The notes under the pieces: model-generated
Database searches by the model: none
Told to the model about the DNA's origin: nothing
Seen by the model: the letters and a program-made list of their open reading frames with translations, nothing else
Assembly (NCBI RefSeq): GCF_017094485.1
Contig: NZ_CP064786.1
Location: 1,426,001 to 1,490,000 of the forward strand
Direction of reading: 5' to 3'
Source of the DNA: Natranaeroarchaeum sulfidigenes
GTDB lineage: Archaea > Halobacteriota > Halobacteria > Halobacteriales > Natronoarchaeaceae
DNA: 64,000 bases
Shown: positions 46,560 to 47,530 of the stretch, piece after piece
Position numbering within the stretch: position 1 is the stretch's first letter
Layout of the letters: each line of letters opens with the position of its first letter
Program-made: the position numbers and the translations under genes

Positions 46560-46670
46560 ATTGAAATCTTACAATGGGAGTACAATCATTCTGTCGTTCA
46601 TTCTATGGTGTTGCCGTTTGTTTCTCATGAGCTAATCGTTTGGGCTTAAAACGAGCCGCAACCCGGATAA

Positions 46671-46692
46671 CCATCTACTACAGAGTAGATGG
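46671..46692. promoter_or_regulatory. Palindromic operator of the wHTH-HicB-HicA cassette
   Basis: CCATCTACT and AGTAGATGG are perfect 9-bp arms with an ACAG centre. A GTTTTATCC TATA-like element follows at 46692-46700, about 24-30 bases before the ATG at 46723. The layout fits an autorepressor site. Confidence 0.55.
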
Positions 46693-46722
46693 GTTTTATC
46701 CTACGCATCCGTACAGCAAGGT

Positions 46723-46962
46723 ATGAGTGGGAGCGAACGTGATGAGCGTGGGCGTTTCTCCGCGAAACACAGTGACGACGAGGTCCTCGACACCGTGCGA
46801 AAACACGGGCCTGCAGGTACGACGGATGTTGCCGAGGAGTTGGGAATTAAGCGCCCCAGCGCGGACTACCGACTTCGCCAATTCGAAACCGACGGCAAGG
46901 TGGAGAGTAAGATGATCGGGAACTCTCTCGCGTGGAGTCTAACTCCGGAGGCTGAAGCATGA
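46723..46962 (+). CDS. Winged-helix DNA-binding protein
   Basis: 79 residues. DDEVLDTVRKHGPAGTTDVAEELGIKRPSADYRLRQFETDGKVESKMIGNSLAW is a winged-helix/MarR-like domain. It overlaps the HicB gene by four bases (ATGA), so it is part of the same operon, and a perfect palindrome lies in the promoter. It probably autoregulates the cassette and may act with HicB. Confidence 0.78.
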   Translation: MSGSERDERGRFSAKHSDDEVLDTVRKHGPAGTTDVAEELGIKRPSADYRLRQFETDGKVESKMIGNSLAWSLTPEAEA

Positions 46963-47231
46963 GCACTGACTCCAGCAGCAACCATGACCCGCCGACGGGC
47001 ACCACGATCACGCTTACCCGTGAAACCAACTGGTGGGTCGCAAAGGATGAAGAAACCGGCGTCGCCAGTCAGGGTAAGAGCCGTCAGGAGGCCCTTGAAA
47101 ACCTCGATGAAGCACTTCAAGGCTATCACGGAGATGGCGACCCTCCTAGCGACGAGGATCTCCGCGAGATGGGGATTGACCCCGAGCACAACACCTCCGA
47201 CTCTCTCGATGACTCAGGGATTTTCGAGTAA
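46959..47231 (+). CDS. HicB-family antitoxin
   Basis: 90 residues. TITLTRETNWWVAKDEETGVASQGKSRQEALENLDEALQGY is the HicB partial RNase H-like fold. The tail is Asp/Ser-rich with no ribbon-helix-helix or HTH, so DNA binding is plausibly delegated to the upstream winged-helix protein. It lies directly before a HicA-like gene. HicB neutralises HicA. Confidence 0.8.
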   Translation: MSTDSSSNHDPPTGTTITLTRETNWWVAKDEETGVASQGKSRQEALENLDEALQGYHGDGDPPSDEDLREMGIDPEHNTSDSLDDSGIFE

Positions 47232-47255
47232 CCTCTCCTGTTACGAAGAGACGTT

Positions 47256-47459
47256 GTGACGGTAATGGTCAACAGCGGAATCTACGAGTGGAAGCGCACG
47301 CGCGGCGACCATGCGATCCTCCGCTGGGAGCCGCCCGAGGACCACGACGCCGAAGCGCGCACCGTCCCAGTCCCGCTCCACGACGAGATTAGCGAGGGCA
47401 CGCTCAAAGACATCGCAGATCAGGCCGGCGCGAACGATTACCAGAAATTCAAGGCCTAG
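47256..47459 (+). CDS. HicA-family toxin, N-terminus uncertain
   Basis: 67 residues from a GTG at 47256. The double-stranded RNA-binding-like fold of HicA is visible: GIYEWKRTRGDHAILRWEPP with the catalytic-type His in GDHA, then VPVPLHDEISEGTLKDIADQAG. The usual first helix would need about five to six more residues (frame open from 47232, CTG at 47238 or no AUG), so the true start is unclear and the gene may be N-terminally decayed or use a non-AUG start. HicA cleaves mRNA. Confidence 0.7.
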   Translation: MTVMVNSGIYEWKRTRGDHAILRWEPPEDHDAEARTVPVPLHDEISEGTLKDIADQAGANDYQKFKA

Positions 47460-47530
47460 ATCGACCAAAACCGATAATTGACGGGTACTGGAACCCACTC
47501 GACCACTCACACCCCAGTGTGGCCTAGATC

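Follow-up and report, generated by a model that had tools for sequence, protein, structure and literature searches.

A haloarchaeal hicBA toxin–antitoxin variant with a predicted trans-acting winged-helix autorepressor

Introduction

In the omega–epsilon–zeta toxin–antitoxin system the repressor, the antitoxin and the toxin are encoded by three genes, an arrangement resembling that of the locus described here; its RHH repressor and zeta kinase toxin set it apart, and the proteins are unrelated. A second system, paaR2-paaA2-parE2, likewise opens with a gene for a separate regulator and includes an antitoxin without a DNA-binding motif, and the paaR2 mRNA is leaderless (PMC8630535), a property that it would share with the wHTH transcript predicted below. 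It differs in being bacterial and in combining a CI-like prophage repressor with unrelated antitoxin and toxin families, whereas the regulator found in haloarchaea, a winged helix of 79 aa, occurs repeatedly with several toxin families. Bacteria are known to possess three-gene systems in which the regulator has a gene of its own, and the haloarchaeal association of a winged helix–turn–helix (wHTH) gene with hicBA represents a new variant.

A 2024 survey sorted HicA toxins into 14 classes, of which classes 1–10 are bicistronic and none includes a gene for a separate regulator (Gerdes, PMC10865869). The same survey names the regulation of hicAB operons whose HicB lacks a DNA-binding domain, the commonest kind, as an open question, and states that classes 1 and 2 lack experiments. 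Class 2 hicBA is common in archaea and resembles our cassette in that hicB comes first and encodes, in 63–103 codons, a HicB without a recognisable DNA-binding domain; the cassette differs from it by an additional upstream wHTH gene and operator. A 2009 survey of type 2 systems had described HicA–HicB as a strictly unique pair (PMC2701414). In the literature searched we found no mention of DUF7387, the family to which the antitoxin belongs, and nothing specific on a haloarchaeal link between winged-helix proteins and toxin–antitoxin systems.

Organisation of the cassette and its promoter

The cassette lies on the forward strand of the window, by which we mean the whole stretch of 64,000 nucleotides of Natranaeroarchaeum sulfidigenes DNA that was analysed. 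Its first gene (46723–46962) encodes the 79-aa wHTH protein and overlaps the HicB-like antitoxin gene (46959–47231; 90 aa, DUF7387, PF24113) by the four nucleotides ATGA at 46959–46962, the hicB start lying inside the wHTH stop. After the hicB stop follows a frame homologous to HicA (PF07927; 47232–47459), which is a remnant. A sequence-only reading had drawn attention to this overlap, to a perfect 9-bp palindrome beside a TATA box and to the absence of a DNA-binding domain from hicB, and all three observations hold. NCBIfam and PADLOC returned nothing useful for the cassette.

The first protein matches winged-helix families in Pfam below threshold only. Its AlphaFold2 model, built with 40 homologues (pLDDT 78), comprises the three helices (residues 18–28, 33–40 and 44–56) and the beta wing (60–65 and 68–73) of a wHTH fold; the recognition helix carries the sequence KRPSADYRLRQ, with Pro45 near its N-terminus as residue 2 of the modelled helix. 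Winged-helix neighbours in the PDB include PapI (2htj), AspA (5k5q, an AspA–DNA structure), the MarR-type ZitR and SlyA bound to DNA (3q5f), and a dN/dS of 0.11 against the paralogue described below points to constraint.

The DUF7387 match of the antitoxin (84 bits) covers nearly all of its 90 residues, and neither Pfam nor the structural model contains a DNA-binding domain. We looked for the partial RNase H-like beta-beta-beta-alpha fold of HicB; the model, of low confidence (pLDDT 62), places strands at residues 17–21, 26–30 and 36–39 and a helix at 42–56, and its best fold matches in the PDB, the HicB-like 2yzt (E 0.12) and the antitoxin 3k6q (E 0.33), are both weak. Plasmid-borne relatives carry the annotation HicB, and dN/dS against the paralogue is 0.106. 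The operon hence combines a DNA-binding protein encoded by its own gene with an antitoxin devoid of a DNA-binding domain. It agrees with class 2 in its small HicB of this kind and in the order hicB before hicA, and departs from the bicistronic layout of that class in the wHTH gene, whose 4-nt overlap with hicB is seen in 14 of the 15 wHTH–HicB pairs surveyed below.

Upstream of the operon, the candidate operator is a perfect 9-N4-9 inverted repeat, CCATCTACT-acag-AGTAGATGG (46671–46692), with arms at 46671–46679 and 46684–46692 and a spacer of 4 nt; against local shuffles its p is about 0.002–0.003. Next to it on the forward strand stands the TATA-like element TTTTAT (46694–46699), centred ~26 nt 5' of the wHTH ATG. 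By analogy with known haloarchaeal promoter spacing this element would be the promoter, and its position suggests a leaderless transcript.

An intact twin and the decay of hicA

The genome of 3.04 Mb, a single contig, contains three hicA loci. One belongs to L002, a complete duplicate of the cassette ~150 kb away in which HicA is intact (84 aa), and an orthologue of this copy with an intact hicA occurs in another genome of the genus (L037, genome G140). Aligned with L002, the window hicA has suffered a 24-nt deletion after 47244, which removes the start codon and the residues SYSPFSG, and a change of TGG to TAG at codon 79 (47457–47459), upstream of the ancestral TAA stop at 47475–47477. The frame still matches HicA_toxin PF07927 with 42 bits (cutoff 27) and retains the invariant catalytic-type histidine (His30 column), yet the beginning of helix 1 is gone, as is Gly8, a residue that hardly varies, so that the complete alpha-beta-beta-beta-alpha frame with a start codon exists in L002 and L037 and not in the window. 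The sequence-only reading was right in placing a hicA frame after hicB but wrong in taking the frame at 47256–47459 for an intact gene, having overlooked both the decay and the complete twin.

The third hicA of the genome (L001, 1480–1704, at ~524.4 kb) also carries TAG at the homologous Trp codon, with the frame readable beyond it. Of the three hicA genes in the genome, two thus have TAG at this near-C-terminal codon, compared with none of 51 other sampled hicA frames, and parallel decay is the probable cause. Recoding of TAG was considered and rejected in view of its absence from those 51 frames and of the missing start codon in the window copy.

Local alignment delimits the duplicated unit common to the window (46628–47504) and L002 as the cassette plus ~45 bp on each side, so that it apparently moved in one compact piece. 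The two HicB proteins are 97% identical, and zero-mismatch operator sites occur just twice in the genome, each before a copy of the cassette. The operator arms are the same in both copies, whereas the 4-nt spacer differs and so does the DNA upstream, as selection on the operator predicts.

Might the window copy nevertheless be a decaying remnant, with wHTH and hicB drifting without function? Its hicA carries two inactivating lesions, and hicA is broken in 4 of the 11 wHTH–HicB–HicA loci of our survey. Against this, both wHTH and hicB retain intact frames at a dN/dS of ~0.11, even if the greater part of this divergence may have arisen before hicA decayed; the operator arms of the window copy are perfect; and an operator common to the intact copy, together with a near-identical antitoxin, leaves it a plausible role. 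We consider a functionless remnant rather unlikely, and hold instead that a toxin-less copy with identical operator arms and a 97% identical antitoxin probably co-regulates and buffers its intact twin.

Recurrence in haloarchaea

Across a sample of 392 haloarchaeal genomes DUF7387 is present in 303 and homologues of the wHTH in 147. Among the loci whose neighbourhoods were examined there are at least 15 wHTH–DUF7387 operons, in 13 genomes and seven families; these recurrence counts are lower bounds, drawn from part of the listed places. In 11 of the 15 a hicA comes next, intact in seven (L002, L037, L040, L041, L044, L064 and L152, where it lies directly 3' of hicB) and broken in four, including the window. 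The regulator-bearing form is in the minority, most DUF7387–HicA pairs having no wHTH.

Mapped onto the HicB tree, the presence of the wHTH requires eight changes, of which at least six are forced by well-supported branches. The sequence-only reading had proposed a tripartite variety that would fall if the triplet were not conserved, and had supposed a transfer of DNA binding from the antitoxin to a third protein. The triplet survives the survey, and a separate wHTH with an operator of its own does recur with HicB; the supposed transfer is not supported, since DUF7387 without a DNA-binding domain is also found in the commoner two-gene form. A loss of the domain by HicB was rejected likewise, DUF7387 lacking it whether the wHTH is present or absent. 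At least six gains or losses, along with two-gene DUF7387 loci without the domain, suggest that the regulator was added (or lost) repeatedly.

Which protein reads the operator

As a rule, antitoxins, HicB proteins with HTH or RHH domains among them, bind to palindromic sequences within their own promoters (PMC10865869, PMC11594946), and by this precedent HicB or a HicB–HicA complex might bind the palindrome as in canonical hicAB, with the wHTH gene as a passenger. That DUF7387 is devoid of a DNA-binding domain speaks against it, as does the distribution of palindromes. Scored by symmetry only (9-N4-9, at least 7 of 9 pairs), a palindrome begins between −53 and −49, a start window of 5 nt, in 21 of the 69 wHTH loci of a non-redundant set, the median for other start windows being 1, and in just 2 of the 34 two-gene loci where hicBA encodes a HicB of the DUF7387 family. 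The same operator also precedes wHTH genes with other partners (L039 and L187, see below), and the identity of the half-site tracks the recognition helix of the wHTH. Binding by HicB is accordingly highly improbable in our estimation.

A blind scan of the 392 genomes found five exact sites, all directly 5' of a wHTH gene; in one of these genomes (G044) the partner of the wHTH is a HicB–DUF433 fusion. One site with a single mismatch adjoins a truncated wHTH. Four other one-mismatch sites (in G024, G234 and G294) have no wHTH beside them and resemble chance matches or repeats. When 84,980 genomes were scanned, 18 stretches were returned, none in haloarchaea, which amounts to chance background only. 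Allowing up to three mismatches in the source genome adds one site just 5' of a third wHTH homologue, whose helix is of the Arg type and whose half-site reads AGG; since a control with the reversed pattern likewise yielded one site, this further site is weak when taken alone.

At its third position the half-site varies with the residue that aligns to Pro45: Pro goes with T in 5 of 5 loci, Gln with C in 11 of 13 and Arg with G in 6 of 9, the Arg type accounting for three exceptions. The permutation p is 0.0002, and none of the other eight bases falls below 0.05. Shared ancestry weakens this association: kinship-corrected contrasts on well-supported branches leave one or two independent cases, almost never contradictory and not significant. 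Four plasmid loci (L187–L190) were added after the code had been derived. L187 (ERPSADYRLR, Pro) has CCGTCTACT-tcat-AGTAGATGG at −53, with AGT as predicted; L188 (ARQSADYRLR, Gln) has AGC at −53, also as predicted; and L189 and L190 (both Gln) have imperfect sites containing AGC. Because the L188 protein is that of L045, surveyed earlier, only L187 puts the code cleanly to a new test.

Triplets with diverged wHTH proteins (L040, L064, L066 and L152) have a weak palindrome or none. Three loci with CTRRTAYTRL helices (L097, L113 and L118) seem to have one or two palindromes at about −68 and −38, and not at −53.

From these comparisons the operator appears to track the winged helix and not HicB, and the wHTH very probably controls its operon via the promoter palindrome.

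Other partners of the regulator

Near the closest homologues of the wHTH, Pfam identifies PIN, HEPN, PemK, Fic/Doc, Mrr and DUF433–DUF5615 proteins as next-gene partners. Single family members stand directly 5' of an Mrr-type restriction endonuclease (L061, G322) and of a Fic/Doc protein (L119, G167). In two wHTH–DUF7387 operons (L049 and L050) the third gene encodes a PIN toxin, and a Salinirubellus plasmid outside the set of 15 (L187; NZ_CP147842.1, 1501–2532) combines the wHTH with a HicB-like protein and a PIN toxin. In G044 (L039) the gene behind the wHTH encodes a fusion of the HicB domain with DUF433, and a PIN-like DUF5615 protein comes next. A perfect palindrome of 12 bp, AGTCCATCTACT-ctac-AGTAGATGGACT, accompanies the wHTH gene of this locus.

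Haloarchaeal wHTH–PIN operons (L053–L058 and L189) share with the cassette a homologous wHTH and, in several cases, an operator of the same type at the same position. They differ in that the wHTH has a C-terminal tail and the PIN toxin follows directly, so that DNA binding occurs in cis with the presumed antitoxin part; in the window cassette it is in trans. The HicB-like protein of L187 ends in a DDPFF...DEYL tail, and a similar tail is fused straight to the wHTH in L055, L057, L072 and L077, a PIN gene coming next.

Given a family spread over 147 of 392 genomes, many of whose members have no toxin–antitoxin partner downstream, the wHTH could be a stand-alone transcription factor, cotranscribed by chance and not specific to toxin–antitoxin systems. 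The closest homologues, however, repeatedly have a toxin–antitoxin gene next, in the case of HicB with the 4-nt overlap, and the scan of the source genome revealed no other target of the same operator. This alternative, which overlaps with a role of the wHTH in its own operon and mainly disputes its specialisation, we judge unlikely.

Proposed mode of action

Taken together, the computed architecture, recurrence, operator position, linkage to the wHTH and decay of hicA make it likely, in our view, that the cassette is a modular haloarchaeal variant of class 2 hicBA, in which the first gene would encode a trans-acting autorepressor and the toxin-less copy would co-regulate and buffer its twin. 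A dimer of the 79-aa wHTH is predicted to bind the 9-N4-9 palindrome just 5' of the TATA box. With TTTTAT directly beside the palindrome, the bound dimer should block TBP/TFB at the BRE/TATA elements and would thereby repress the leaderless transcript of its own operon. HicB, presumably co-translated with the wHTH through the ATGA overlap, would serve only to neutralise HicA, and the window copy, itself without a toxin, would probably share regulation with the intact copy and supply HicB against the HicA of the latter. Judged from sequence, the wHTH may instead activate the operon rather than repress it, and HicB may modulate the wHTH.

Concluding remarks

A broader proposal, for which we regard the arguments as evenly balanced, is that haloarchaea possess a swappable three-part system made up of a wHTH repressor with its operator, a HicB-domain antitoxin and a varied toxin (HicA, PIN/VapC-type or DUF5615), with a residue–base code of Pro–T, Gln–C and Arg–G. 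HicB-like antitoxins accompanied by PIN and DUF5615 toxins argue against the statement that HicA and HicB form a unique pair (PMC2701414). For a minority archaeal form, the cassette offers a concrete and testable answer to the question of how operons with a HicB lacking DNA-binding ability are regulated, together with a predicted operator open to footprinting and a predicted residue–base code, and its layout suggests how toxin–antitoxin pairs with a non-DNA-binding antitoxin may be regulated. If the swappable system is real, such operons would trade toxins and specificities while autoregulation is kept.
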